The notes under the pieces were generated by a model. It had not been told where the DNA came from. It made no database searches and saw nothing but the letters and a program-made list of their open reading frames with translations. A stretch of DNA of 32,346 nucleotides. Origin: Acidimicrobiia bacterium. GTDB taxonomy: Bacteria > Actinomycetota > Acidimicrobiia > Acidimicrobiales > CAIXPF01. This document shows positions 775-28,779 of this stretch, piece after piece; position 1 is the first letter of the stretch; each line of letters starts with the position of its first letter. The translations under genes and the position numbers were made by a program. Where the stretch lies: assembly GCA_009377505.1 (NCBI GenBank), contig WHTX01000020.1, positions 1 to 32,346 on the forward strand, read 5' to 3'.

Positions 775-1536
775 CTACTGGACAGGGTCGAGGGTGTCAG
801 CCTCCGACGCTTCCTCGCCCGCCTCGTCCCGCCCCTCGGCGACGACCGCCCAGGCCACCTGGGCCGCGGCCTGCTGCGCCTGCTTCTTCGAGCGACCCTC
901 GCCGACGCCGAGCTCGACCCCGCCGACGAGGACGCGTGCCCGGAACAACTTGTCGTGGTCGGGCCCCTCCTCCTCCACGACGTAGCCGGGCGGCCGGTCG
1001 AAACGGCGGGCGACCAGCTCCTGCAGGCGTGTCTTGTAGTCCTGGGTGCCGGGGTCGGTCGCCGCCTCGATGATGAGCCCGTCGAAGAGGGCGAGGACGA
1101 CCCGCTGGGCGTCGGGCCACCCCCCGTCGAGGTAGACGGCGCCGAGGACGGCCTCGAGCGCGTCGGCCAGGATCGAGGGCTTGGCCCGGCCCCCGGTGGC
1201 CTCCTCCCCCTTGCCGAGGCGCAGGCCCTCGCCCATGCCGAGGTGAGCGGCGACGGCGGCGAGCGCCGGTGCGCTCACGACGGCGGCGCGCACCTTGGCC
1301 ATCGCCCCTTCCGCCAGGGTGGGGCAGGTGCGGTAGATGTGGTCGGTCACCACGATGCCGAGCACGGCGTCGCCGAGGAACTCGAGGCGCTCGTTCGACT
1401 CCGAGCCCTCGTGCTCGGCGCACCAGGACCGGTGCGTCAGGGCGAGGGCCAGGAGGTCGGGGGCCGCGAAGCGGTGGCCGACCCGCTCGGCGAGCGACTC
1501 GAGGGCGGCGGGCGCGGGGTCAGGCGGCGCGGGCAA
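775..1536 (-). CDS. rnc: Ribonuclease III
   Basis: Endoribonuclease III cleaves double-stranded RNA during rRNA and mRNA processing. The RNase III signature NERLEFLGDAVLG is at residues 48-60 and carries the acidic metal ligands. A second acidic patch follows (DALEAVLGAVYLDGG). The C-terminal third (about 160-230, DYKTRLQELV... to KKQAQQAAAQVAW) is a double-stranded RNA-binding domain. At 253 residues the length is normal. The start is TTG at 1536, which overlaps the 3' end of acpP by 17 bp and implies coupled translation. It is the last gene of rpmF-plsX-acpP-rnc, a conserved bacterial order. The C-terminal tail after the dsRBD is acidic and low-complexity. Confidence 0.95.
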   Translation of the reverse strand: MPAPPDPAPAALESLAERVGHRFAAPDLLALALTHRSWCAEHEGSESNERLEFLGDAVLGIVVTDHIYRTCPTLAEGAMAKVRAAVVSAPALAAVAAHLGMGEGLRLGKGEEATGGRAKPSILADALEAVLGAVYLDGGWPDAQRVVLALFDGLIIEAATDPGTQDYKTRLQELVARRFDRPPGYVVEEEGPDHDKLFRARVLVGGVELGVGEGRSKKQAQQAAAQVAWAVVAEGRDEAGEEASEADTLDPVQ

Positions 1537-1810
1537 GGACGTAGTCGACGGCGTCCCTGACGGTCTTGAGGTCCTCGAGGTCCTCGTCCTCGATCCGGAA
1601 GCCCACGCTGCGCTCGCCGACCTCCTCCTCGATGGCTTCGACGAGCTCGATCAGCGCCAGCGAGTCGGCGTCGAGGTCGTCCTGGAAGGAGTCGCCCTCG
1701 CTGATGGTGGCGGGCTCGATCTCCAGGATGTCGGCGAGGCGGTCCCGGATCAGCCCGAAGACCTCGGCTCGCGACAGCGGACCATGTTCGACGTGGGTCT
1801 CGGCAGGCAC
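1520..1810 (-). CDS. acpP: Acyl carrier protein
   Basis: A small acidic 96-residue protein with the phosphopantetheine attachment motif DADSLALIELV; Ser50 is the residue modified by holo-ACP synthase. It carries growing acyl chains in type II fatty-acid synthesis and supplies acyl-ACP to PlsX, encoded just upstream. It is somewhat longer than the typical 77-80 residues, with an extra N-terminal segment (MPAETHVEHGPLSRAE). The ATG at 1810 lies 78 bp downstream of the plsX stop, and the stop overlaps the TTG start of rnc. Its position between plsX and rnc supports the housekeeping ACP role over a polyketide carrier protein. Confidence 0.93.
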   Translation of the reverse strand: MPAETHVEHGPLSRAEVFGLIRDRLADILEIEPATISEGDSFQDDLDADSLALIELVEAIEEEVGERSVGFRIEDEDLEDLKTVRDAVDYVLARAA

Positions 1811-1888: not shown

Positions 1889-2968
1889 TCAGCCGGTGCT
1901 GGCCGGGCCCTCGGCGGTGCTGGCCGGGCCGGAGTGGCGGGCGGCCTCGGCGAGCGTGTCCACGACTCGCGCCTGCACCATCTCCCGCGCCACCCCGATC
2001 GCGTTGGCGACCGCCCACGCCGAAGAGGACCCGTGGCTGATGATGGCCACGCCGCGCACGCCGAGGAGGATGGCGCCGCCGGTGCGCTCGGGGTCGAGCT
2101 CCTCGTACAGGCGCCGGGCCGAGTCGACGATGAGCTGGTTGCCTGCGGCGATGCCCTCCAGCGTCCTGACCATGCCGTCGAGCGCGCCCTCCAGGGTCTT
2201 GAGGGCCACGTTGCCGGTGAAGCCGTCGGTGACCACGACGTCGACGTCGGTGGACATCAGGTCGCGGCCCTCGACGTTGCCGATGAAGTCGCCGCCGACG
2301 TGGTCGAGCCAGCCCGGCACGCTCATCAGCCGGTGGGCGTCCTTGACGACCTTGTTGCCCTTGACGGACTCCTCCCCGATGGACATGAGCCCGACCCTGG
2401 GCTTGTCCACGCCGTAGCGCAGCCGGGCGTACACCGTGCCCATCTGGCCGAACTGGACCAGCCACTCGGGGTTGCACTCGGCGTTGGCGCCGGCGTCGAG
2501 CAGGATCGTCGGCGTCCCGCCCGGCGAGGCGATCGGGCTGGCGATGGCGGGGCGGGCGATGCCCCGGATACGCCCCATGCGCAGGAGCGCGGCGGCCATG
2601 GCCGCGCCGGTGTTGCCTGCGCTGACGAGGGCGGACGCCAGGCCGTCGCGCACGGCCTCGGCCCCGCGAACGACCGAGGAGTCTTTCATGCGCCGCACGC
2701 TGGCCGTGGGGTCGGCGTCCATGGGGATGGCCTCGGAGGCGGCGATGAAGGGCACCTCGCCGCGTGAGCCCAGGGCGTCGGGCGGACCGAACAGCACGAC
2801 AGGGATGCCGAGCTGTTCGAACGCGGTGCGCGCCCCGGCGACGACGGCATCGGGGGCGTTGTCCCCGCCCATGGCGTCGACGGCAATGGGCAGGTGCCCG
2901 GCCGCCTCCACCAAGTCGACGAGGCGTTGCCCGAGGTCCGCCAGCCCGGCCAAGTTCTGGTTCGGCAC
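1889..2968 (-). CDS. plsX: Phosphate acyltransferase PlsX
   Basis: PlsX converts acyl-ACP to acyl-phosphate, the first step of phospholipid synthesis by the PlsX/PlsY route. The N-terminal family hallmark IAVDAMGGDNAPDAVV is present. Further family segments include SAGNTGAAMAAALLRMGRIRG and the C-terminal GVAIISHGSSSAWAVANAI. The reading frame is open far upstream into rpmF, so the start is uncertain. GTG at 2968 gives 359 residues and overlaps the rpmF stop region. GTG at 2911 gives 340 residues and places the start eight codons before IAVDAM, closer to family N-termini. Neither has a clear Shine-Dalgarno, which fits coupling to rpmF. The C-terminal tail (PASTAEGPASTG) is low-complexity. Confidence 0.92.
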   Translation of the reverse strand: MPNQNLAGLADLGQRLVDLVEAAGHLPIAVDAMGGDNAPDAVVAGARTAFEQLGIPVVLFGPPDALGSRGEVPFIAASEAIPMDADPTASVRRMKDSSVVRGAEAVRDGLASALVSAGNTGAAMAAALLRMGRIRGIARPAIASPIASPGGTPTILLDAGANAECNPEWLVQFGQMGTVYARLRYGVDKPRVGLMSIGEESVKGNKVVKDAHRLMSVPGWLDHVGGDFIGNVEGRDLMSTDVDVVVTDGFTGNVALKTLEGALDGMVRTLEGIAAGNQLIVDSARRLYEELDPERTGGAILLGVRGVAIISHGSSSAWAVANAIGVAREMVQARVVDTLAEAARHSGPASTAEGPASTG

Positions 2969-2985
2969 CGAGGACGTGGTGCTGG

Positions 2986-3165
2986 TCAGCCGACCTCGAC
3001 GGCCTGGCGGCCGCGGTACCAACCGCACACCGGGCACACGACGTGGGGCACCTTGGCCGACCCGCAACGCGGGCACAGGCTCCGCGCCGGGGCGTCGAGG
3101 GCCCACGCAGACGCCCGCCGCGTGCGGGTCTTGGCCTTAGACATCTTCTTCTTGGGGACAGCCAT
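2986..3165 (-). CDS. rpmF: 50S ribosomal protein L32, zinc-binding type
   Basis: A 59-residue L32. The start is set at ATG 3165 because the protein begins MAVPKKKMSKAKTRTRR, the standard L32 N-terminus; the frame is open further upstream but that extension is not L32-like. Two Cys pairs, CPRCG and CPVCGWYRGR, form the zinc ribbon, so this is the zinc-dependent paralogue. In most bacteria rpmF is directly preceded by yceD (DUF177) in one operon. Here the 244 bp upstream hold only a dispersed repeat and then an unrelated MFS gene. A yceD-like 3' remnant lies 8.5 kb away at 11664-11880. Confidence 0.95.
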   Translation of the reverse strand: MAVPKKKMSKAKTRTRRASAWALDAPARSLCPRCGSAKVPHVVCPVCGWYRGRQAVEVG

Positions 3166-3262
3166 CTTCGTGGATCCTGCCTGAGAGGTGGCCCGGTGGG
3201 CCGAGCGGCTGGCTGGCCGAAGGCGCGCGCCGGGCGCGCTCGTCGACACGGGGACGAGAGCT

Positions 3263-3343
3263 TAGCCCTGATCTTTCATGAGGCTCACGGCCAGGCCCCT
3301 GACCAGGACGGCAGCTGGTCGGGCGAACTCGAATGAAGGTTGG
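3263..3343 (-). repeat. Dispersed repeat, copy A
   Basis: This intergenic element between the MFS gene and rpmF has near-inverted ends: CTTTCAT at 3273-3279 and, on the opposite strand, CCTTCAT from 3333-3339. Its core at 3288-3325 matches 21313-21350 in inverted orientation at 37 of 38 positions. On the minus strand it could encode ...FARPAAVLVRGLAVSLMKDQG followed by TAA, resembling the end of copy C (...TSLMKHHG, TAG). Whether it is a MITE-like element or a relic of a short coding module is not clear. It sits at the rpmF-side boundary of the block that appears inserted between yceD and rpmF. Confidence 0.6.
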
Positions 3344-3409
3344 GCTAGTGCCGAGCGCCGTTCGCGGCGAGCCCGCCCCCCACCTGGGCCGGGAGAGCGA
3401 GCCCGGGCC

Positions 3410-4690
3410 TTACCTCACGTGAAGGACGTCGGGGCGGTAGAGGAGCCAGAGGCCCAGGGCCACGATCCCGGCGCCGGCGTTCACCACCAGCGCCGTGCTC
3501 GGGCTGGTGGCCTCGGCCAGCAAGCCGAGGATGACCATGCCGAAGGGCAGGGCGCCGATGGCCATGGACAGCAGCCCCATGGCCCGGCCCCGCATCGACT
3601 CGTCGGCAACGGCGAGCACCAGGGCGCTCTGGGTGGCGGCGAAGCCCCCGGCACACAGCCCGGTGAGCACGAGCAGCCCGAGCGCCACCGAGTAGTCAGG
3701 CACCAGGGCGAAGGCGATGAGGCAGGCCATGCCCGAGAAGCACCCTCCCACGTAGAGCAGGCCCCGCCGCTTCGGGTCGAAGGCCACGACCAGCGCCGAA
3801 CCGATGAGCATGCCCGCGCCCGTGCCCGACGCCAGCAGGCCGGTCCGGAAGGCGCCGGCGTCGAAGCGCTCGGCGAGCACGGTCACGAGGGGCATGTACG
3901 AGAAGAACAGCAGGTTCATCAGGAAGGTGACGCCGAGCATGCTCACCAGGGCCCGGTTCGCCGGCAGGGCGCGGAGGCCGTCGACCACGTCACGGCGCAC
4001 CGAGGTGCCGCTCGTGGCCGCGGTGCGGCGGGGCGCCGACGGCACGCTCAGCATGAGCAAGAAGCAGGCGCCGTAGAGCACGGCCACGAGCCCGTAGGCG
4101 GAGCCGTTGCCGATGGCGGCGATCACGGCGCCGCCGCACAGCGCGCCCGCCATGTTGCCCGCGGAGATGGAGACCGCCTCGAGGGACATGGCATTGCCCA
4201 CGAGGCGGTCGCCGACGAGGTCGTGCACGAAGGCCCGGCGGTTCGTCATGTCCACGACGTTCCCGACGCCGACGGCCGCCACGAAGACGTAGACCATCCA
4301 GGGCTCGACCCGCCCGGCGCCGACGACGACCGCCATCAACGCGGCGAGGGGGATGAGCACGCCGAGCTGGCGGACGACCGTGCGGCGCCGATCGGAGCGG
4401 TCGGCGATGGCTCCGGCGGCCACGCCCCCGAGGAACATCGGCAGGAACGAGGCGGTGCCCACGAGCTGGACGAGCAGCGGGGAGCCGGTGAGCTCGCGCA
4501 TGAGGTAGGCGCCGGCGAACAGAGCCATCCAGCGGGCCAGGTTCCACAGCGCTCCGGAGGCGAACACCCGCGGGTAGGCGGGGGCGCCGAACGCGGCGAA
4601 CGAGCCACTCCGGGAGGCAAGGGCTTCCTCGGCGGCGATCGTCCCCTCAGCGCCCCCCGCCGGCACGCGCGCTGGCCCCGTCGTCGTCAC
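3410..4690 (-). CDS. Major facilitator superfamily exporter (MFS_3/EntS-like)
   Basis: A 426-residue membrane protein with about 12 hydrophobic helices. The loop GAIADRSDRRRTVVRQLG (about residues 92-109) matches the MFS motif after TM2 (GxxxDRxGRR). The second half repeats the pattern (GSALVVAFDPKRRGLLYVG). The opening, ALWNLARWMALFAGAYLMRELTGSP, resembles the enterobactin-exporter/MFS_3 group, usually drug or siderophore efflux. The substrate cannot be read from sequence. The start is GTG at 4690, preceded by AGGGGAC and embedded in a short tandem repeat. It follows the DsbA-like gene by 130 bp on the same strand. Confidence 0.88.
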   Translation of the reverse strand: MTTTGPARVPAGGAEGTIAAEEALASRSGSFAAFGAPAYPRVFASGALWNLARWMALFAGAYLMRELTGSPLLVQLVGTASFLPMFLGGVAAGAIADRSDRRRTVVRQLGVLIPLAALMAVVVGAGRVEPWMVYVFVAAVGVGNVVDMTNRRAFVHDLVGDRLVGNAMSLEAVSISAGNMAGALCGGAVIAAIGNGSAYGLVAVLYGACFLLMLSVPSAPRRTAATSGTSVRRDVVDGLRALPANRALVSMLGVTFLMNLLFFSYMPLVTVLAERFDAGAFRTGLLASGTGAGMLIGSALVVAFDPKRRGLLYVGGCFSGMACLIAFALVPDYSVALGLLVLTGLCAGGFAATQSALVLAVADESMRGRAMGLLSMAIGALPFGMVILGLLAEATSPSTALVVNAGAGIVALGLWLLYRPDVLHVR

Positions 4691-4718
4691 GTCCCCTCAC
4701 GTCCCCCTCACGTCCCCC
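4688..4718 (-). repeat. Short tandem repeat over the MFS start codon
   Basis: Three near-identical 10-11 bp units, read on the minus strand as (A)GGGG(G)ACGTG, run directly into the GTG start of the MFS gene. Each unit carries a GGGG-rich Shine-Dalgarno-like stretch followed by GTG. The GTG at 4711 is in frame but stops after four codons, and the GTG at 4700 is out of frame, so only the last (4690) can start the transporter. Gain or loss of units could alter initiation; that is inference. Confidence 0.55.
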
Positions 4719-4820
4719 AGGTCGATCGGGGAGGATAGTGCCCCGTCCATCACCGGGGCCTGAACACCGCGAACGTCGGTGGTCGTGGCGCTCGTCGCTC
4801 GAGCCGGTCGCCCTTGCCGG

Positions 4821-5513
4821 TCAGCCCTCGGGCGACGGGGCCAGGCGCTGCCTGGCCCGCTCGAGCACGGCCACGAAGGTGTCGACCTCCTGCGCGCCGG
4901 GGATGAGCAGGCGGTCCTCGATGACGAAGGCGGGCACGCCGGTGATCTCCCGCTCGAGCGCCGCCTGGCTGTCCCCGGCCACCTCGTCCCCGAACTCGGT
5001 GGACGCCAGCGTGGCCGCCGCGGCATCGGCGTCGAGGCCGGCATCGGCGGCGAAACGGGCGAGGGCGGGGTGGTCGGCCACGTCGGCGCCCTCCTCGAAG
5101 TAGGCCTGGAAGAGGCGCTCGGCCAGCCGGCCCTGGGCCTCGGGCGCGGTGGCCCACGCCCAGGCGAGCAGGCGGTGGGCGTCGCGGGTGTTGACGCGCT
5201 GCGCCCGGTCGAAGCGGTAGTCGATGCCCTCGGGCGCCCCGAGGGCGACGAGCCTGGTGACCATGGCGTCGAAGGCGCCGGGGCCGTACTTGCGCTCGAG
5301 CGAGGCGCGCAGGTCGCCCGGCTCGCGGGACGCGCCGGGATCGAGCTGGTAGGCACGCATGCGGACCTCGACCTCGCCACCCCAGCCGAGCGAGGCGACG
5401 GCTCGCTCGAAGCGTCGCTTGCCGAGGTAGCACCACGGGCAGACCACGTCGGACCAGATGTCGATGCGCACGCCCGGGGCAACGCTCGGCGGCCTGGCCT
5501 CCTTCCGCCCCAC
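4821..5513 (-). CDS. DsbA family oxidoreductase (FrnE-like thioredoxin fold)
   Basis: A thioredoxin-fold protein with the CPWC redox motif in IDIWSDVVCPWCYLGKRRFE and the cis-proline loop TGVPAFVIEDRLLIPGAQ near the C-terminus. It belongs to the DsbA/2-hydroxychromene-2-carboxylate isomerase-like group (FrnE type). No signal peptide is visible, so it is probably cytoplasmic. The GTG at 5513 gives 230 residues. Family proteins usually begin near VRIDIWSD, so GTG at 5471 (216 residues) is a serious alternative, although the best Shine-Dalgarno-like stretch (GGAAGGAGG) lies inside the longer frame. It is 50 bp downstream of oppF and on the same strand. Confidence 0.88.
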   Translation of the reverse strand: MGRKEARPPSVAPGVRIDIWSDVVCPWCYLGKRRFERAVASLGWGGEVEVRMRAYQLDPGASREPGDLRASLERKYGPGAFDAMVTRLVALGAPEGIDYRFDRAQRVNTRDAHRLLAWAWATAPEAQGRLAERLFQAYFEEGADVADHPALARFAADAGLDADAAAATLASTEFGDEVAGDSQAALEREITGVPAFVIEDRLLIPGAQEVDTFVAVLERARQRLAPSPEG

Positions 5514-5563: not shown

Positions 5564-6699
<1,136 letters not shown>

Positions 6700-8710: not shown

Positions 8711-9631
8711 TCACCGTTCGAGCCGGATCCGCGGGTCGACCCACGCGTAGGCGATGTCGACCAACAGGTTGACGAGCACGACCATCGCTGCCGCCAGCAG
8801 CACCACCCCTTGGACGAGGGGGAAGTCGCGTTGGTCGATGCCCTGCTTGACCAGGTCGCCGATACCGGGCCAGGAGAAGATCGACTCGACGACCACGGCC
8901 GCGTTGACCATGACGACGAAGTTCACCCCGGCCAGCGTGAGGACGGGCAGAAGGGCGTTCTTCAGCGCGTGCTTGAGCACGACGACCCGCTCGGGCATCC
9001 CCTTCAGCCGGGCCAGCTTCACGTAGTCGCTCCCGGCGATCTCGAGCAGGCTCGAGCTCACCAACCGCATCATCGACGCGGCGAAGTACCAGCCCAGGGA
9101 GATGGCCGGCATGATCAACTGCTTCCAGCTCCCGCTGCCCGACGTCGGGAGCAACTCGAGCTGTACCGACAGGATGTACATGAGCACGAGGGCGATCACG
9201 AAGTTGGGGATGGCCAACCCGGCCAGGCCGACCACCTTGGCGGCGGAGCTGAGGCGGCTGCGTGGTCGCACGGCCGACACGATGCCGGCGGGGATGCCGA
9301 CGAAGATCGAGATGAGGAAGGCGGCCCCGGCCAGCTGCAGCGAGAACGGCAGACGGTCGAAGTACAGGTCGCGCACCGGCACCCGGAAGTTGAATGACTG
9401 GCCGAAGTCGCCGCGCACGGCGTCGCCCAGGAACGCGGCGTACTGGACCGGGAGCGGGCGGTCGAGGCCGAGGTCGGCCCGCAGGGCGGCCACGTCCTCG
9501 GCGCTGGCCTCCTGGCCGGCCAGGAGCCGGGCCGGATCGCCGCTCAGCCTCACCATCATGAAGACGGTCAGGCTCAAGAAGAGCAGCGTTATGGCGCTGT
9601 AGACCAAGCGGCGGATGATGAACCTCGCCAT
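8711..9631 (-). CDS. Peptide/nickel-type ABC transporter permease (OppB/DppB-like)
   Basis: A 306-residue permease with the N-terminal family pattern MARFIIRRLVYSAITLLFLSLTV and the typical loop LRADLGLDRPLPVQYAAFLGDAVRGDFGQSF. The EAA-type loop reads KLARLKGMPERVVVLKHALKNALLP. The ATG at 9631 has a good Shine-Dalgarno (AAGGGGGAGC) just upstream. About 180 bp separate it from the SBP gene stop, and that gap contains dispersed repeat copy C, so it may rely partly on its own ribosome binding site. Confidence 0.93.
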   Translation of the reverse strand: MARFIIRRLVYSAITLLFLSLTVFMMVRLSGDPARLLAGQEASAEDVAALRADLGLDRPLPVQYAAFLGDAVRGDFGQSFNFRVPVRDLYFDRLPFSLQLAGAAFLISIFVGIPAGIVSAVRPRSRLSSAAKVVGLAGLAIPNFVIALVLMYILSVQLELLPTSGSGSWKQLIMPAISLGWYFAASMMRLVSSSLLEIAGSDYVKLARLKGMPERVVVLKHALKNALLPVLTLAGVNFVVMVNAAVVVESIFSWPGIGDLVKQGIDQRDFPLVQGVVLLAAAMVVLVNLLVDIAYAWVDPRIRLER

Positions 9632-22113: not shown

Positions 22114-23826
22114 TCAGAGCCGGCCGCCACCCGTGGCCAACAGGGGCCGCAGGGCGTCGCGCAGCTCGCCCAGCCGCGCCCGGGCCTCCCGCTCGGCCTC
22201 CTCGTGGCCGCCGGCGGCCTCGGGCGGCACCAGGCGCACCACCTCGGCGTAGACCTTGAGCTTGGGCTCGGTGCCACTCGGCCGTACCACCAACCGGGAG
22301 CCGTCGCCCAGCTCCCAGACCAGGACGTCGCTGGGGGCCAGCCCATCGAGGCCCTTGGCGAGGTCGCACACCCTGTCCACGGCCACCCCCGCCAGCGCGC
22401 CCGGCGGGTCGACGCGCAACCGCGCCATCAACGCCGAGGTCCCCGCCATGCCCGAAGCACGGTCCCCGAACCGGACAGACCACTGCGCGGTGGCGTGGAG
22501 GCCGTGCTCGCCGGCCAGCTCGGCCAGGCGCTCTGCCGGGCTCGAGCCCGCCCCGGCCAGGTCGGCCACCACCTCGGCCACGAGGAGCGCGGCGGAGATG
22601 CCGTCCTTGTCTCGTACGACTGGGCCGACACAGTAGCCGAGGGCCTCCTCGTAGCCGAAGAGGAAGCGCCACTCCGGGTGCTCGAGGGCGGGACGGACGA
22701 TCCACTTGAAGCCGGTGAGCGTCCGGGCAGCGCGCACGCCGGCCGCCTCCGACATGCGCTCTACGAGGCGCGAGCAGGCCACCGTGGAGACGACGAGCCG
22801 GTCGTCGCCGCTCGTATGGCGGAGGAGGTGGTCGGCGAGCAGCGCGCCGACCTCGTCCCCGGTGAGCACCCGCCAGCCACCGGGGCCGGGCACGGCCACC
22901 CCGAGCCGGTCGGCGTCAGGGTCGTTGGCCAGCGCGACCTGCGCACCAGCGCCCTCGGCCACGTCGAGCAGACGGTCGAGGACGCCGGGCTCCTCGGGGT
23001 TCGGGAAGGGCAAGCCGGGGAACGCCGGGTCGGGACGGGACTGGTCCTCGACGACCACCGGCGGGGCGAACCCCGCCCGTCGGAAGGCCGCCAGCATGGT
23101 CTCTGCGCCCACCCCGTGCAACGCCGTGAAGGCCACGGCGACCGCCCGGGCCCGGGGGCGGACGCTCTGGGCCACGATCGCCTCCAGGTAGGCGTCGACC
23201 AGCTCGCCACCGACGGTGGCCACGAGCGGCGAGCTCCACGGGTCGTCCAGCACCTCGACCGGCGCCCGGCCCGCTCGGGCGATCTCCGCAGCGATGCGCT
23301 CGTCGTGGGGCGGCACGATCTGGGCCCCGTCTCCGAGGTACACCTTGTAGCCGTTGTCCCGGGGCGGGTTGTGGCTCGCCGTCACCATCACCCCGGCGTC
23401 GGCGCCGAGGTGGCGGACGGCGAAGGCGAGGACCGGGGTGGGCAACGGGCCCTCGAGGACCCGCACCTCCACCCCCCGGGCCGCGGCGACGGCGGCGGTG
23501 TCCGCCGCGAAGACGTCCGAGCGCCGTCGCGCGTCGTAGCCCACCACCAGCAACGGGCGACGACCACGCGGGGCGCGCTCGGCCACGTAGGCCACGAGAC
23601 CGGCGGCGGCCTGGCGCACGACGAGGCGGTTCATGCGCATCGGCCCCCCGCCGAGCTCGGCCCGCAGGCCGGCCGTGCCGAACTGCAGCCGGCCTGAGAA
23701 GCGCTCGGCCAGGGCTTCCCAGTCGCCCGCCGCCCGCAGGGAGCTCAGCTCGGCGTGGGTCTCGGCGTCCGGGTCCTGAGCCAGCCAACCCTCCACCTCT
23801 TCGCGCAGCGTCGCGGTGTCGATCAT
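22114..23826 (-). CDS. Phospho-sugar mutase (phosphoglucomutase/phosphomannomutase family)
   Basis: A 570-residue alpha-D-phosphohexomutase that interconverts hexose 1- and 6-phosphates through a phosphoserine. The catalytic loop is VTASHNPPRDNGYK with Ser151. The metal-binding loop is NDPDADRLGV (302-307), the sugar-binding loop is GYEEALGY (391-398), and the phosphate-binding loop near the C-terminus is RPSGTEPKLKVY. QFGTAGLRAELGGGPMRMN (48-66) is typical of the PgcA/PgmB-like long form found in actinobacteria and Bacillus. The start is ATG 23826. It is convergent with the upstream small genes and divergent from the ribbon-helix-helix gene. Glucose versus mannose preference cannot be decided here. 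Confidence 0.93.
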   Translation of the reverse strand: MIDTATLREEVEGWLAQDPDAETHAELSSLRAAGDWEALAERFSGRLQFGTAGLRAELGGGPMRMNRLVVRQAAAGLVAYVAERAPRGRRPLLVVGYDARRRSDVFAADTAAVAAARGVEVRVLEGPLPTPVLAFAVRHLGADAGVMVTASHNPPRDNGYKVYLGDGAQIVPPHDERIAAEIARAGRAPVEVLDDPWSSPLVATVGGELVDAYLEAIVAQSVRPRARAVAVAFTALHGVGAETMLAAFRRAGFAPPVVVEDQSRPDPAFPGLPFPNPEEPGVLDRLLDVAEGAGAQVALANDPDADRLGVAVPGPGGWRVLTGDEVGALLADHLLRHTSGDDRLVVSTVACSRLVERMSEAAGVRAARTLTGFKWIVRPALEHPEWRFLFGYEEALGYCVGPVVRDKDGISAALLVAEVVADLAGAGSSPAERLAELAGEHGLHATAQWSVRFGDRASGMAGTSALMARLRVDPPGALAGVAVDRVCDLAKGLDGLAPSDVLVWELGDGSRLVVRPSGTEPKLKVYAEVVRLVPPEAAGGHEEAEREARARLGELRDALRPLLATGGGRL

Positions 23827-23992: not shown

Positions 23993-24020
23993 CTTGGCCC
24001 TCCGGCACTACCGGTAGCAT
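23993..24020 (+). promoter_or_regulatory. Candidate promoter of the ribbon-helix-helix gene
   Basis: CTTGGC (23993-23998) and TAGCAT (24015-24020) are spaced 16 bp. The GTG start at 24029 follows 8 bp after the -10, so the transcript would be leaderless or nearly so. On the other strand TAGCAT also occurs at 23878-23883, 50 bp before the mutase ATG, a possible divergent promoter with no clear -35. The rest of 23827-24028 shows nothing else. Confidence 0.35.
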
Positions 24021-24028
24021 CAGCGCCA

Positions 24029-24724
24029 GTGAGCCTCAAGCGCGACCTGTCGGGTTTCGCCGACCCCGGTGGCCTCCCGGCCCCCCCGCCTCCTCCGGCC
24101 GTCTCACCGGCGGTGGTGGCGCCGGCTCCCGACCGGGCCGTCCCCGAGGCTCCGCCGGGCGGCGACGCCCAGGCCAGCGGGGCACCAGGGAGCGGAGAGG
24201 GCCCCGCGCCGCCCGCGGCACCGCCGGGACGCGGCTCACGAGGCGCTCGCTCGGGCGGCGGGCGCAGCGGCCGCAAGGGAGGCAGTGGGCGGCCGGGCCG
24301 CAAGCGGATCTGCGTCTCGCTCACGCTCGAGGCCTCCGAGCAGCTCGCCGGGCTCGCCCAGGCCCGCCGGTCCTGGAAAGTGGAGGTGATCCTCGAGGCC
24401 CTGGACCGCTGGGACAGCCCGCTCCGGGAGGGGCAGGGCAACGGTGAGCGCGCCCGCTTCCGGCGCCGGCGCAGCTCGACGCCGACGCCCTTCGTGATGG
24501 ACCTGACCCCCGGAGAGCTGGGCCAGCTCGACGAGCTCGCCGCCGCGGTGGGGACGTCCCGGTCGGCTCTCGTGCGGCAGCTGATCCTCCTCGAGGCCAC
24601 GGCCGCTGCCACGGCCACGGCCACGAACGAGTCCACGCCCTCCCCGGGCGGGCCCGAAGCCGGTGAGGCGGGTGACGGGAACGGCGCGGCCGTCGAGGAC
24701 GGCGACGAGACGGGTACGCGGTGA
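24029..24724 (+). CDS. Putative DNA-binding protein with two ribbon-helix-helix-like segments
   Basis: A 231-residue protein from GTG 24029 (VSLKRDLSGFADPGG). Residues 10-85 are Pro/Ala/Gly-rich and likely disordered, followed by an Arg/Gly/Lys-rich linker. Two segments then look like ribbon-helix-helix units: KRICVSLTLEASEQLAGLAQ...EVILEALDRW (92-128) and PFVMDLTPGELGQLDELAAAVGTSRSALVRQLILLEA (154-190). The second is close to the CopG/Arc pattern (strand, helix, GTSRSALVRQ helix). Two in one chain would form a pseudo-dimer. The stop overlaps the GTG of the next gene (GTGA), implying a two-gene unit. A role in repression or partition is possible; nothing proves either. Confidence 0.65.
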   Translation: MSLKRDLSGFADPGGLPAPPPPPAVSPAVVAPAPDRAVPEAPPGGDAQASGAPGSGEGPAPPAAPPGRGSRGARSGGGRSGRKGGSGRPGRKRICVSLTLEASEQLAGLAQARRSWKVEVILEALDRWDSPLREGQGNGERARFRRRRSSTPTPFVMDLTPGELGQLDELAAAVGTSRSALVRQLILLEATAAATATATNESTPSPGGPEAGEAGDGNGAAVEDGDETGTR

Positions 24725-25329
24725 TCGACCACGTCTTCACCGACGCCATCGCCGCGCTCCGTGACGTGCTCGAGGGCGCCCTGCTCGAACCCCAGGCGGT
24801 GGAGGAGCGCCTCCAGGTCGACATGCTGGGCGGTGACCTGAGCTGGCAGACCACCTACAGCCTGCCCGGCGAGGGCAACCCGCCCCGGGTCCAGGCCGAC
24901 CTGACCCTGGACTGGTCGGTGTGGTCGCAGTCCGCCTACCGCTCGTGGCGGCTCGGCGACGCCCCCACCGACGCCCCGCGCATCGGTCTCGAGGTCGTGT
25001 TCAGGGTGCAGCGGCTCTCGAGCCCGCCCGACGTGCACACGGTGTCGACGGCGCTGCCCCCCACGTCGGCCGCGGTCGGGGGCACCGAGCTCGAGCGGCA
25101 CGGGCCCCGCGTCGAGTCGGGCTACGAGGACGACCTGTCGAGCGCAGAGCACGCCGTGGAGGTCAGCTACCACGGCGAGTACGAGCTCGACGACGCCTCC
25201 CTGGCCGACCCGGGCCTGCTCGACGACCACTACGGTGCCCTCGGCGGCTGGATCGCCTCGACCCTCGTGCGCTTGGCCGACCTGCAACTCGACTTCCTCC
25301 CTCCCGACGAGGAGGAGGCCACCCCCTGA
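24721..25329 (+). CDS. Conserved-looking protein of unknown function, paired with the RHH protein
   Basis: A 202-residue acidic, soluble protein from GTG 24721, which overlaps the previous stop by 4 bp. It starts with a helix (VFTDAIAALRDVLEGALLEPQAVEERL), then has strand-rich stretches (LQVDMLGGDLSWQTTYSLPG, VQADLTLDWSVWSQSAYRSW, RIGLEVVFRVQRL). It ends with an acidic helical part (GGWIASTLVRLADLQLDFLPPDEEE). There is no signal peptide, no membrane helix and no recognised catalytic motif. The codon pattern and coupling support a real gene. It may act together with the RHH protein. Confidence 0.75.
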   Translation: MIDHVFTDAIAALRDVLEGALLEPQAVEERLQVDMLGGDLSWQTTYSLPGEGNPPRVQADLTLDWSVWSQSAYRSWRLGDAPTDAPRIGLEVVFRVQRLSSPPDVHTVSTALPPTSAAVGGTELERHGPRVESGYEDDLSSAEHAVEVSYHGEYELDDASLADPGLLDDHYGALGGWIASTLVRLADLQLDFLPPDEEEATP

Positions 25330-25357: not shown

Positions 25358-26164
25358 GTGACCACGACCGCTGACCCCGTGCTCGTCGACGTCGCCGAAC
25401 GGATCGGCACCGTCACCCTCAACCGGCCCGAAGCCCGCAACGCGCTCTCCTCCGAGGTGCTCACACGGCTCCCCGAGGCCATGGCCGCCCTCGACGGGGA
25501 CGACGGCGTCGACGTCATCATCCTGACCGGGGCCGACCCGGCCTTCTGCGCCGGCCTCGACCTCAAGGAGCTGGGCTCGACGGGGGGGAACCTCGGCGCC
25601 GGTGCGCCCAACCGCGACCGCGCCGACGGCCAGGGACTACGCCGCGGCCCCTGGGGCCAGCTCGGCAAGCCGGTCATCGGCGCCGTCAACGGCGTCAGCG
25701 TCACCGGCGGGTTCGAGCTCGCCCTGTGCTGCGACTTCCTCGTCGCCTCGGAGCGGGCGCGCTTCGCCGACACCCACGCCCGGGTCGGGGTCATGCCCGG
25801 CTGGGGCCTGACCGTCCTGCTGCCCCAGGCCGTCGGCCTGCGCAAGGCTCAGGAGATGAGCACGACCGGCAACTTCCTCGACGCGGCGGAGGCCCATCGG
25901 CTGGGCCTGGTCAACCACGTCGTAGCCCACGAGCAGCTCATCCCCACGGCCAGGGGCCTGGCGCTCGACATCATCGGCAACGACCAGCCCGGCGTGCGCC
26001 AGGTGCTCGCCACCTACCGTGCCGTGGCCGACACGACCATCGCCGAGGGCTGGCAGGCGGAGGCACGGATGGGCCGCGCCTGGCTCCGCGGCCGCGACGT
26101 GACCTCGGAGGTGGCCGGCCGCCGTGAGGGGATCCTGGCCCGGGGGCGCACCCAGTCGACCTGA
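25358..26164 (+). CDS. Enoyl-CoA hydratase/isomerase (crotonase) family protein
   Basis: A 268-residue crotonase from GTG 25358, preceded by GAGCGGAG; the frame is open further upstream into the previous gene, so this start is preferred. The acyl-CoA site begins with GTVTLNRPEARNALSSEV (17-34). The first oxyanion-hole loop is ADPAFCAGLDLKEL (59-72) and the second is NGVSVTGGFELALCCDFLVAS (111-131). Glu120 corresponds to the first catalytic Glu of enoyl-CoA hydratase. The second Glu position (PE in hydratases) reads THARVGVMPGWG here, so the second catalytic Glu is absent. That pattern is common in crotonases of other activity, so hydration should not be assumed. It lies 28 bp after the unknown gene. 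Confidence 0.9.
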   Translation: MTTTADPVLVDVAERIGTVTLNRPEARNALSSEVLTRLPEAMAALDGDDGVDVIILTGADPAFCAGLDLKELGSTGGNLGAGAPNRDRADGQGLRRGPWGQLGKPVIGAVNGVSVTGGFELALCCDFLVASERARFADTHARVGVMPGWGLTVLLPQAVGLRKAQEMSTTGNFLDAAEAHRLGLVNHVVAHEQLIPTARGLALDIIGNDQPGVRQVLATYRAVADTTIAEGWQAEARMGRAWLRGRDVTSEVAGRREGILARGRTQST

Positions 26165-26886: not shown

Positions 26887-28779
26887 TTACGCGTCGGGCA
26901 GCAAGAATTCGCCGCTCGCGACGAGCAGGTGCCTCGGCAGGCGCGATGTCCACCACCTGAGCAGGTCTTCCGCTCCCACCAGCCCATACGCGCGCAACAT
27001 CGTCCGATTTGCGCCGATCAGCGATCCGATCGAGTCGGGGGCGTCGCGCAACGCGGCCGCGGCGTCGTCCCACGCCCCCCGATCGGCGGGCAGGGGCACC
27101 TCGAGCACCTGGCGGGCCGACAGCTTCACCGCCCCGGCGGAGAGACCGGCCCCACCGAAGCGCTCGAGCGCCCAGGCGGTGGCCACGGCCGAGTTGAGCA
27201 CGGCGGCGAGGTGCCACAGGTCGGCCGGCTCGGCCTCGACGGCCACGCACGGCACGGAGGGCACCCAGCGGCCGGCGACGTCCACCGCCGCCTCCAGTAC
27301 CGAGGACTGCGTGGCGACGACGAGCTTGGGGACGAGCCGGGCGTGCACCCACGCAGCGAGCGTGGGGTCGCTCCCATCGAGCCCGCCCAGGTCGAGGACC
27401 GGCGCCTGCCAACGGGCGCGGGCGAAGCGCACCGGACCGGCGCCGAAGCGCACGACCACGGGGTCGATCATCCCGACGGTGACGAGCCGGGGCCAGGTCG
27501 CCGACAGGCCCTCGCCCGCCTCCTGCACCCAGGGGGCGAGGCCGTAGTACTGGTCGCGGAACCCTGCCGTGGCCGTGGCGAGGTCGCCCACGCGCCCTGC
27601 CGCCCGTGGGCTGCAGAGGGGGACACCACGGGCACCGGCGGTGACGGCCGACCAGGTGGCCCGCCTCATCACCCGGGCGGCGTCGACCCCTGGCCCCGGC
27701 TCGGCGGCGCGCCCCAGCCACGTGCGCACGACCGGCGCTTGGCCCGCGCTGACCGTGAGCACCGGCGCGCAGACCCGCACGTCGGCGGGGAAGAGGCCTG
27801 CCCCGCCGAGCCAGACACCCTCGAGGCAGGCGGCGGCGGCCACCTGGGCGAGCACCCTCCCGGCGTGCTCGGCGACCAGCACCGACTCCGGCTGGACGAG
27901 CACGACCCGCGCCCCGGGCCGCGCCGCTCCGAGCGCGGCGAGGAGGAAGAGCGCCGAGGTGTCGACGTAGCCATGCACGGCGCGCCCGTGGCGGGCGGCC
28001 AGCTCGGCGGCCTCGGTGCGGCGTCGCGTCGTGTCCCGGGCGAGCTGGCCGAGGAAGGGCGGGTTGCCCACCACGACCGCCGCGCCTCCCGGCGGCCAGG
28101 CGGCGTCCTCGGCCAGGGCGTCGGCCACGGTGAGGCCCAGTCGGCCCTCGTGCCAGGACCCGCTGTGGCGCTCCGCCCACCAGCGCAGGGACACGTCGGC
28201 CACGGCCACGGCGACGGGGTCGATGTCGGCGCCATGGAGCAGGCCGAGGACGTCCGCAGCACGGGCCCCGCCCTCGTGGAGCGCCGCGGCGGCAGCGAGG
28301 AGGAAGGCCCCCCCGCCGACCGCCGGGTCGACCACCGGGCCCGCCACCGGGCCCCCGGGAAGGGCCGCTCGGCCCGAGGGCTCCGCCCCGAGCACCAGGC
28401 CGACGAGCCGGCGAGCGACGTCGGGCGGGGTGAAGAAGGCCCCCCGCACCCGCCGCTCCCGGCCCGCGAGCACGGCCTCGTAGGCCTGGCCGAGCAGGGC
28501 CGGCCCGACGCCCGTCGCGCCGACTGGCCCGGGGAGGGGGACGGGGCTGACCGGCGCCTCCACGGGTGGCGCCCGGCGGGCGCCCCGGCCACCAGCGTCG
28601 CCGAGGGGTACCGCGAGTCGCTCGTCGAGCGCCGTGACCAGGGCCGAAGGTGCGTCGCCGCGGGCGACGAGGGCCGCCGCCAAGGCGCGGACCACCTCGG
28701 CCGCCGGTAGGCCCTGTGCCGTCGCCCACCCGGCCAGGGCTGTCAGCCACGCGCCGACCGAGCGGTCCGGGTGCCCCAC
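26887..28779 (-). CDS. Putative N6-adenine-type DNA methyltransferase (orphan)
   Basis: A 630-residue class I S-adenosylmethionine-dependent DNA methyltransferase. Order: an Ala-rich helical N-terminus (1-90); GAFFTPPDVARRLVGLVLG (113-131), the pre-motif found in type I/IIG and BREX-like methylases; motif I VVDPAVGGGAFLLAA (149-163); DIDPVAVAVAD (185-195); and catalytic motif IV VVVGNPPFLGQL (236-247), the N-P-P-F form of adenine methylases. The C-terminal half (about 350-630) resembles a target-recognition and helical region (ATATAGFRDQYYGLAPW; LWHLAAVLNSAVATAWAL). There is no nuclease domain, and no restriction or specificity gene lies beside it. The start is GTG 28779. It is divergent from the Nudix gene, 51 bp away. 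Target sequence unknown. Confidence 0.8.
   Translation of the reverse strand: MGHPDRSVGAWLTALAGWATAQGLPAAEVVRALAAALVARGDAPSALVTALDERLAVPLGDAGGRGARRAPPVEAPVSPVPLPGPVGATGVGPALLGQAYEAVLAGRERRVRGAFFTPPDVARRLVGLVLGAEPSGRAALPGGPVAGPVVDPAVGGGAFLLAAAAALHEGGARAADVLGLLHGADIDPVAVAVADVSLRWWAERHSGSWHEGRLGLTVADALAEDAAWPPGGAAVVVGNPPFLGQLARDTTRRRTEAAELAARHGRAVHGYVDTSALFLLAALGAARPGARVVLVQPESVLVAEHAGRVLAQVAAAACLEGVWLGGAGLFPADVRVCAPVLTVSAGQAPVVRTWLGRAAEPGPGVDAARVMRRATWSAVTAGARGVPLCSPRAAGRVGDLATATAGFRDQYYGLAPWVQEAGEGLSATWPRLVTVGMIDPVVVRFGAGPVRFARARWQAPVLDLGGLDGSDPTLAAWVHARLVPKLVVATQSSVLEAAVDVAGRWVPSVPCVAVEAEPADLWHLAAVLNSAVATAWALERFGGAGLSAGAVKLSARQVLEVPLPADRGAWDDAAAALRDAPDSIGSLIGANRTMLRAYGLVGAEDLLRWWTSRLPRHLLVASGEFLLPDA

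Follow-up and report, generated by a model that had tools for sequence, protein, structure and literature searches.

A protein assigned to a ParA-linked double ribbon-helix-helix family, inserted ahead of an order-conserved gene in an Acidimicrobiia genome

The first gene of an otherwise orphan pair in an Acidimicrobiia bacterium, ORF1, probably encodes a ParB-equivalent adaptor that was parted from its parA gene and came to lie behind the ancestral leaderless promoter of the second gene, ORF2, ahead of the start codon of the latter. This reading accounts for the pair and brings to light a system in which a ParA-type ATPase is coupled to a tandem ribbon-helix-helix (RHH) protein. The window, i.e. 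the whole stretch of 32,346 nucleotides that was analysed, corresponds to contig C84 in a draft assembly totalling 5.35 Mb (494 contigs, 92% complete, 5.5% contaminated). Its relevant features are listed below.

22114 to 23826, minus strand: phosphomannomutase/phosphoglucomutase-family gene (PMM), divergent from ORF1 (Pfam PGM_PMM I-IV)
24015 to 24020, plus strand: TAGCAT, a -10-like element 8 nt 5' of the ORF1 start codon, at the position of a leaderless promoter (putative promoter activity)
24029 to 24724, plus strand: ORF1 (P0001, 231 aa, GTG start), double RHH protein of the ParB-equivalent family
24029 to 24058, plus strand: ORF1 residues 1-10, MSLKRDLSGF, proposed ParA-contact peptide (alignment with ParA-linked relatives)
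24059 to 24301, plus strand: ORF1 residues 11-91, Pro/Gly/Ala-rich linker, probably disordered (sequence; low AlphaFold2 confidence; no distinct GC-by-position coding signature)
24302 to 24412, plus strand: ORF1 residues 92-128, RHH segment 1 (CopG, 1b01/2cpg, via the family profile; RHH_5 in relative L165; conserved R93, L98 and A124)
24482 to 24598, plus strand: ORF1 residues 152-190, RHH segment 2 (Pfam RHH_1; Arc-like repressor PHROG; similarity to a MazE-like RHH protein)
24614 to 24721, plus strand: ORF1 residues 196-231, acidic tail, missing from the relatives (alignment)
24721 to 24724, plus strand: GTGA overlap between the ORF1 stop codon TGA and the ORF2 start codon GTG
24721 to 25329, plus strand: ORF2 (P0002, 202 aa, GTG start), order-conserved, with a predicted YbjN/type III chaperone-like fold
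25361 to 26164, plus strand: enoyl-CoA hydratase gene, downstream of ORF2 (NCBIfam PRK06190 equivalog, above cut-off)

A previous reading of this DNA, made from the sequence only, had described ORF1 as a chain with a long disordered N-terminus followed by two RHH-like segments. The description stands at the level of sequence comparison, by means of Pfam RHH_1 for segment 2 and of the profile of the relatives for segment 1. Residues 164-188, in segment 2, score above the RHH_1 cut-off (22.9 bits, E 7.9e-5). This segment is also matched by an Arc-like repressor of the PHROG collection (E 2e-5), and it shares 49% identity (query residues 48-104) with a MazE-like RHH protein encoded elsewhere in this genome. 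Segment 1 (residues ~92-128) was undetected by Pfam in ORF1 itself; in the relative L165, the equivalent segment matches RHH_5 at E 9.3e-5, below the cut-off of that family. When a profile of the family was compared with all PDB sequences, four matches only were returned, each weak alone (E 0.25-1.1) and all RHH proteins: segment 1 aligned with two CopG sequences, segment 2 with MazE9 and with the antitoxin Rv0298. Structure prediction, which the sequence-only reading had offered as a check, gave a divided answer: it was confident for ORF2, as described below, and poor for ORF1 alone (single sequence, mean pLDDT 52.4). The low-confidence model of ORF1 displays two helices in segment 2 (161-174 and 178-201) and a single helix in segment 1 (100-112); segment 1 is therefore backed through the relatives and the profile, and this model does not prove it. 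Two RHH units in one chain had also been called unusual. They are, although not without precedent: TraY of the F plasmid is a tandem RHH protein. A further precedent exists in EntFR of F-like plasmids, for which two RHH motifs are predicted in one chain as in ORF1 (PMC5102898). EntFR differs from ORF1 as a putative regulator of the conjugation region, and neither a link to ParA nor an SGF peptide is mentioned in the accessible part of that report (PMC5102898).

Searches for relatives with ORF1 as a single protein were weak on account of its low-complexity N-terminus. Such a search retrieved only the genome of origin from a set of 41, and matched 2 of the 298 genomes of the order. The second of these matches, in G047, was rejected as spurious, the surrounding genes being those of ordinary metabolism and the alignment spanning 52 residues (35% identity). 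Across the class, 19 of 345 genomes matched ORF1 at E <= 0.01, and the double-RHH architecture was present in 3 of the 13 loci inspected, nine of them from this search and four others. With the profile, matches at E <= 0.01 were obtained in 33 of 247 genomes; eight places in seven genomes, the genome of origin included, were kept at E <= 4.1e-14, the other 30 matches being weak and partial. Outside the window, eight relatives of the double-RHH architecture were collected, from G493, G321 (on two contigs), G374, G336, G333, G412 and G418. In every one of these eight, all found by RHH searches, a parA-type gene lies directly upstream of the RHH gene, the two overlapping by 4 nt in seven cases and being separated by a gap of 2 nt in the remaining one (G418). 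The upstream neighbour was identified as ParA by Pfam (AAA_31/CbiA) in three cases and by 37-49% identity to a ParA of the ORF1 genome in the other five, with the G412 protein compared over 132 residues only, where its contig ends. A ninth pair was obtained through a ParA search in G060: its RHH protein, coupled to ParA, has two RHH-like segments, lacks the SGF peptide, and reaches 35.0 bits against the profile of the family.

ORF1 belongs to this family over its whole definition, from the N-terminal peptide through the linker to the two RHH segments. An HMM constructed from seven ParA-linked relatives, from which the window protein and G333 were excluded, matches residues 1-189 of ORF1 at 50.4 bits (E 1.6e-14), while the best of 1000 shuffles reached 6.7 bits. 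All 8 rows of the alignment carry the SGF triplet close to their N-terminus without variation (G333, cut by a contig end, was left out), and the shared MSLKRDLSGF peptide supports the start codon of ORF1 at 24029. A location directly behind parA is, however, a feature of the eight relatives and not of ORF1 in the window, where the upstream neighbour is the divergent PMM gene. On these comparisons, ORF1 is classed with the ParA-linked double-RHH family by homology, but is not regarded as a member of an intact parA operon. The very high GC content, the draft state of the assembly and the N-terminal 90 residues, a Pro/Gly-rich stretch whose GC by position (0.87/0.80/0.81) is non-discriminating for coding, could raise the suspicion of an artefact, whether a reading frame left open by chance in GC-rich DNA or a chimera created in assembly. 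This is highly improbable: the match to an independent protein family over the full length refutes a chance frame, the core of ORF1 (residues 91-195) carries the same signature as the neighbouring genes (GC by codon position 0.74/0.54/0.95), and the gene begins 8 nt after a conserved promoter element and ends in an overlap with ORF2.

ORF2 is an older resident gene, independent of ORF1. Its homologues are found in 161 of the 298 genomes of the order, mostly in single copy; a search of 296 genomes of the phylum yielded 14 with a homologue, all 14 belonging to the order, and the named relatives from public contigs carry for the most part the labels Acidimicrobiales, Acidimicrobiia or Actinomycetota, in keeping with a host of the order Acidimicrobiales. 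The RHH family was found at none of 156 loci carrying an ORF2 homologue, some of these loci coming from the same genome. This distribution bears directly on the idea that the two genes form one functional pair, which the sequence-only reading had advanced together with a test set beforehand, the conservation of the pair. The genes proved to be unlinked in relatives, and the gene coupled to the RHH gene is parA in all eight RHH relatives. The translational coupling itself was correctly read, ORF1 and ORF2 overlapping by GTGA at 24721-24724, and this overlap would suit a single module, for instance one in which ORF2 acts as a chaperone of the YbjN kind for the disordered N-terminal part of ORF1. 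The type III chaperone-like fold predicted for ORF2, and the interaction mode proposed to be shared by DR1245, YbjN and these chaperones in the consulted part of one report (PMC3575483), point the same way. Given the wide occurrence of ORF2 without the RHH gene, and the constant association of the latter with parA elsewhere, such a module is very unlikely.

The same evidence weighs on a type II toxin-antitoxin system, also envisaged in the sequence-only reading, in which ORF1 would be the antitoxin and ORF2 the toxin. The genes do constitute a small coupled pair, and the MazE-like protein that resembles segment 2 is itself coupled to a MazF-family toxin. Nevertheless, the homologues of ORF2 stand without the RHH gene at all of the 156 loci compared and are mostly single copies in the order, and ORF2 itself has no match to a toxin family in Pfam, NCBIfam or PADLOC, which makes this system extremely improbable. 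The MazEF-like pair of the genome (locus L035, contig C263 of G000, 1067-1665, minus strand) associates an RHH_1 protein with a PemK/MazF-family toxin.

The absence of a recognisable domain in ORF2, as previously noted, is right by sequence, in Pfam and NCBIfam alike, and neither the YbjN nor the TY-Chap model of Pfam matched any of 40 rows (the window protein and 39 homologues) at E <= 5. Its structure was modelled by AlphaFold2 from a 40-row alignment with a pLDDT of 89.8 and a pTM of 0.86. The best structural match is DR_1245 (4h5b; Z 7.7, rmsd 5.7, 140 residues aligned), followed by the YbjN homologue 2plg (Z 7.4, rmsd 4.2, 132 aligned) and by the type III chaperones Spa15, AvrPphF ORF1 and ExsC (Z 6.1-5.8). 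All these scores lie below 8, a range in which, according to the warning of the tool, a match may reflect merely a common arrangement. Foldseek returned no match to the model at E <= 0.001, and its START-like and other matches were set aside for their low TM-scores. DR1245 and YbjN share their topology with type III chaperones, and a common mode of protein interaction has been proposed for them, as far as the available part of the source goes (PMC3575483). A fold like that of YbjN and the type III chaperones is predicted for ORF2, which differs from DR_1245 and 2plg by the lack of a sequence match, by a Z below 8 and by its length (202 aa vs 149 and 152). A peptide-binding, chaperone-like role may be taken from the model as a lead only.

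The insertion of ORF1 is revealed by the comparison with sister genomes. In G002 to G005, ORF1 is absent and the locus reads PMM (minus strand), ORF2 (plus strand) and enoyl-CoA hydratase (plus strand), with an extra gene in between in G005. The enoyl-CoA hydratase gene directly follows the ORF2 homologue in all five sisters (G001 to G005); in G001, PMM was not found within the 9-kb stretch. Of 78 homologous loci, 59 have a TASVNT element at a distance of 5-10 nt upstream of the ORF2 start codon, with a peak at 9 nt (34 occurrences). The count covers loci L077 to L156, two of these 80 being left out for too little upstream DNA. The motif was chosen after viewing the upstream sequences, and control distances in the same loci serve as a guard: it occurs in 0 of 78 loci at 25-30 nt and in 1 of 78 at 40-45 nt. 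This position, judged from sequence, suggests that the ORF2 family is transcribed leaderless in the order. In the window, an element of this type precedes ORF1 by 8 nt and is absent before ORF2. Since the element stands before ORF1 and not before ORF2, and since G002 to G005 are devoid of ORF1, it follows that ORF1 entered the locus downstream of this promoter element and upstream of the ORF2 start codon. The ORF1-ORF2 arrangement is known from one genome of its genus, in a family of 6 genomes.

The ParA that matches the family of ORF1 is encoded elsewhere in the genome. Contig C25 bears the canonical chromosomal pair, a ParA followed by a ParB with ParB_N and HTH_ParB domains. A second ParA, on contig C144 (Pfam AAA_31), is 38-53% identical to the nine full-length ParAs of the set vs 33% to the C25 ParA, and is the sole ParA of the matching kind in this genome. 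It is flanked by tRNA-Ser and tadA, and no RHH gene was found beside it. ParAs of the C144 type are rare in the order: they were detected at E <= 1e-30 in 3 of 79 genomes, namely the genome of origin, G060 and G010. The G010 protein has a DUF3566 neighbour and no adjacent RHH gene; the coupling of ParA to a double-RHH protein is therefore not universal. Trees of the ParA proteins were mostly unresolved. The co-occurrence of ORF1 and the C144 ParA relates to a single draft genome, of the completeness, contamination and fragmentation given above. Contigs C144 and C84 are alike in tetranucleotide composition, and so are contigs of relatives, which leaves room for C144 to be a contaminant, whereas a dispersed motif carried both by C144 and by the sister G002 favours the same lineage. 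The C144 ParA is the candidate partner of ORF1, a pairing that we infer.

Repeated sequences were searched for as possible binding sites. Around ORF1 in the window, the search yielded no repeats of the centromere type, and no operator-like repeat was found upstream of ORF1. Five CGAWTCG cores with an 11/24 spacing, considered as a candidate centromere, are located between the C144 parA and tadA. They belong to a dispersed paired motif, CGAWTCGNNNNCGAWTCG, with 105 copies in the genome of origin, against 0 for a control pattern, and 21 of 30 copies examined are intergenic by a crude ORF call. Copies are seen, for example, in L230 at 6572-6648 and 9559-9606; the window contains none. In other genomes, the motif was counted 4 times in 200 kb of the sister G002 and 0 times in 100 kb of both G003 and G010. 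In G002, which carries the motif, the searches detected no C144-type ParA and no RHH protein of the ORF1 kind. The motif was dropped as a site for ORF1, being dispersed over the genome, present in G002 and not tied to ORF1.

On the preferred reading of ORF1 as a displaced adaptor, the two RHH units of one chain would bind DNA sites, while the MSLKRDLSGF peptide, on its long flexible linker, would contact and stimulate a ParA-type ATPase on the nucleoid. The DNA bound by ORF1 might thereby be positioned or segregated. The ORF1 gene would have been parted from its parA in this lineage, the candidate partner being the unlinked ParA of C144, and ORF2, an old YbjN/chaperone-like gene, would now lie downstream of ORF1 by an accident of insertion. 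In ParA partners generally, a positively charged disordered N-terminus contacts the ATPase while the remainder binds the cargo, according to the part of the source at hand (PMC10241942). The layout of ORF1 fits this scheme, with a short peptide whose basic residues are K4 and R5, a linker of ~80 residues and two RHH units, and the proposed contact of its N-terminal peptide with ParA is derived from this general rule. The argument of a basic peptide is weakened by three relatives in which the first 12 positions contain only one basic residue and 2-3 acidic ones.

RHH proteins are common autoregulators, and ORF1 could alternatively have severed its link with ParA to become a local DNA-binding repressor of the ORF1-ORF2 operon. 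No ParA adjoins ORF1, the gene sits directly behind the promoter element taken from ORF2, and its PHROG and Pfam matches are repressors and antitoxins. On the other hand, the SGF peptide, without obvious use in a pure repressor, has been kept, a matching ParA has been retained elsewhere in the genome, and the upstream operator-like repeat was not found; autoregulation by a plain repressor is unlikely. The displaced adaptor also fits in part the partition module suggested by the sequence-only reading. The suggestion holds in kind for the RHH protein, whose family stands behind ParA, and fails for its partner, which would be ParA and not ORF2.

ParG and omega are RHH centromere-binding proteins of type I plasmid partition. 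The relatives of ORF1 share with these systems (ParG of TP228, omega of pSM19035, ParB of pB171) the succession of parA and an RHH gene, and one relative displays a weak Pfam match to ParG (E 0.029, below cut-off). The pairing of ParA-type ATPases with RHH DNA-binding partners on plasmids is set out in the accessible portion of one source (PMC13245405). Unlike them, the ORF1 family possesses two RHH units per chain, a long Pro/Lys-rich linker and the SGF peptide, and ORF1 in the window has neither a linked parA nor repeats. With regard to the features of a type I RHH-ParB, the RHH DNA-binding domain is present in ORF1 and a ParA of the matching kind, which may be its partner, is on C144. In archaea, the ParA-type SegA and its RHH partner SegB are encoded on the chromosome; SegB is archaeal, has no sequence identity to bacterial or eukaryotic proteins, and is described without mention of a tandem RHH in the portion of the paper available (PMC12284271). 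ParT of the Streptomyces plasmid SCP2, an actinobacterial, CTP-independent ParB variant devoid of the CTPase fold, differs from ORF1 by a helix-turn-helix instead of an RHH middle domain, as stated in the section consulted (PMC12260392). The HTH-ParB type is given as the only partition type on bacterial chromosomes, again in the accessible portion of the source (PMC13245405), and RHH-type partition is otherwise described, within the parts of these reports that were at hand, from plasmids (PMC13245405) and archaea (PMC12284271). Literature searches confined to open-licence papers showed no ParA coupled to a tandem-RHH protein. Relative to known RHH partition, three elements are new: two RHH units in tandem, the SGF peptide and an apparently chromosomal setting.

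This setting is best seen in G321 and G336, where the ParA/double-RHH pair is bordered on one side by Ku and on the other by an ATP-dependent DNA ligase and YqeY. These loci, and two others that show one side each, are located as follows.

L219 (G321, contig C33), 3193 to 6886: ParA/double-RHH pair flanked by Ku and the ligase
L187 (G336): the same, both sides
L188 (G333): Ku side only, up to the contig end
L189 (G412): ligase side only, where the contig ends, with YqeY recognised by sequence similarity only

It may be, at slightly less than an even chance, that a DNA-positioning system made of ParA and a tandem-RHH protein exists in the class, apparently on the chromosome and sometimes between Ku and the ATP-dependent DNA ligase, the adaptor in the window being placed under the promoter of a YbjN-like gene with its motor in trans. 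A histidine kinase gene (HisKA, HATPase_c) is situated near the pair in L214, L220 and L221 (G321 contig C57, G374 and G493, respectively), and a Methyltransf_28 gene lies upstream in L220. In L218 (G418, 2440-5313, minus strand), the pair adjoins a TrwC-type relaxase, which points to a conjugative element. The G060 pair is near a resolvase. Mobile members of the double-RHH family thus probably exist, on the basis of this relaxase and this resolvase. A mobile-element origin was rejected for ORF1, which had no match to plasmids, phages or viral contigs; the relative L166 was likewise unmatched among plasmids.

With two RHH units in a single chain, a monomer could do what normally takes a dimer, which offers a simple test case for the evolution of ParA partners. 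The separation of adaptor and motor constitutes a natural experiment on whether such a pair must be co-encoded, and the recurrent location of the system next to Ku and DNA ligase poses the question, open to experiment, of a link between the positioning of DNA and end joining. Farther along the window, an ORF of 630 residues (26887-28779, minus strand) resembles by eye, from an NPPF-type motif, an N6-adenine DNA methyltransferase.
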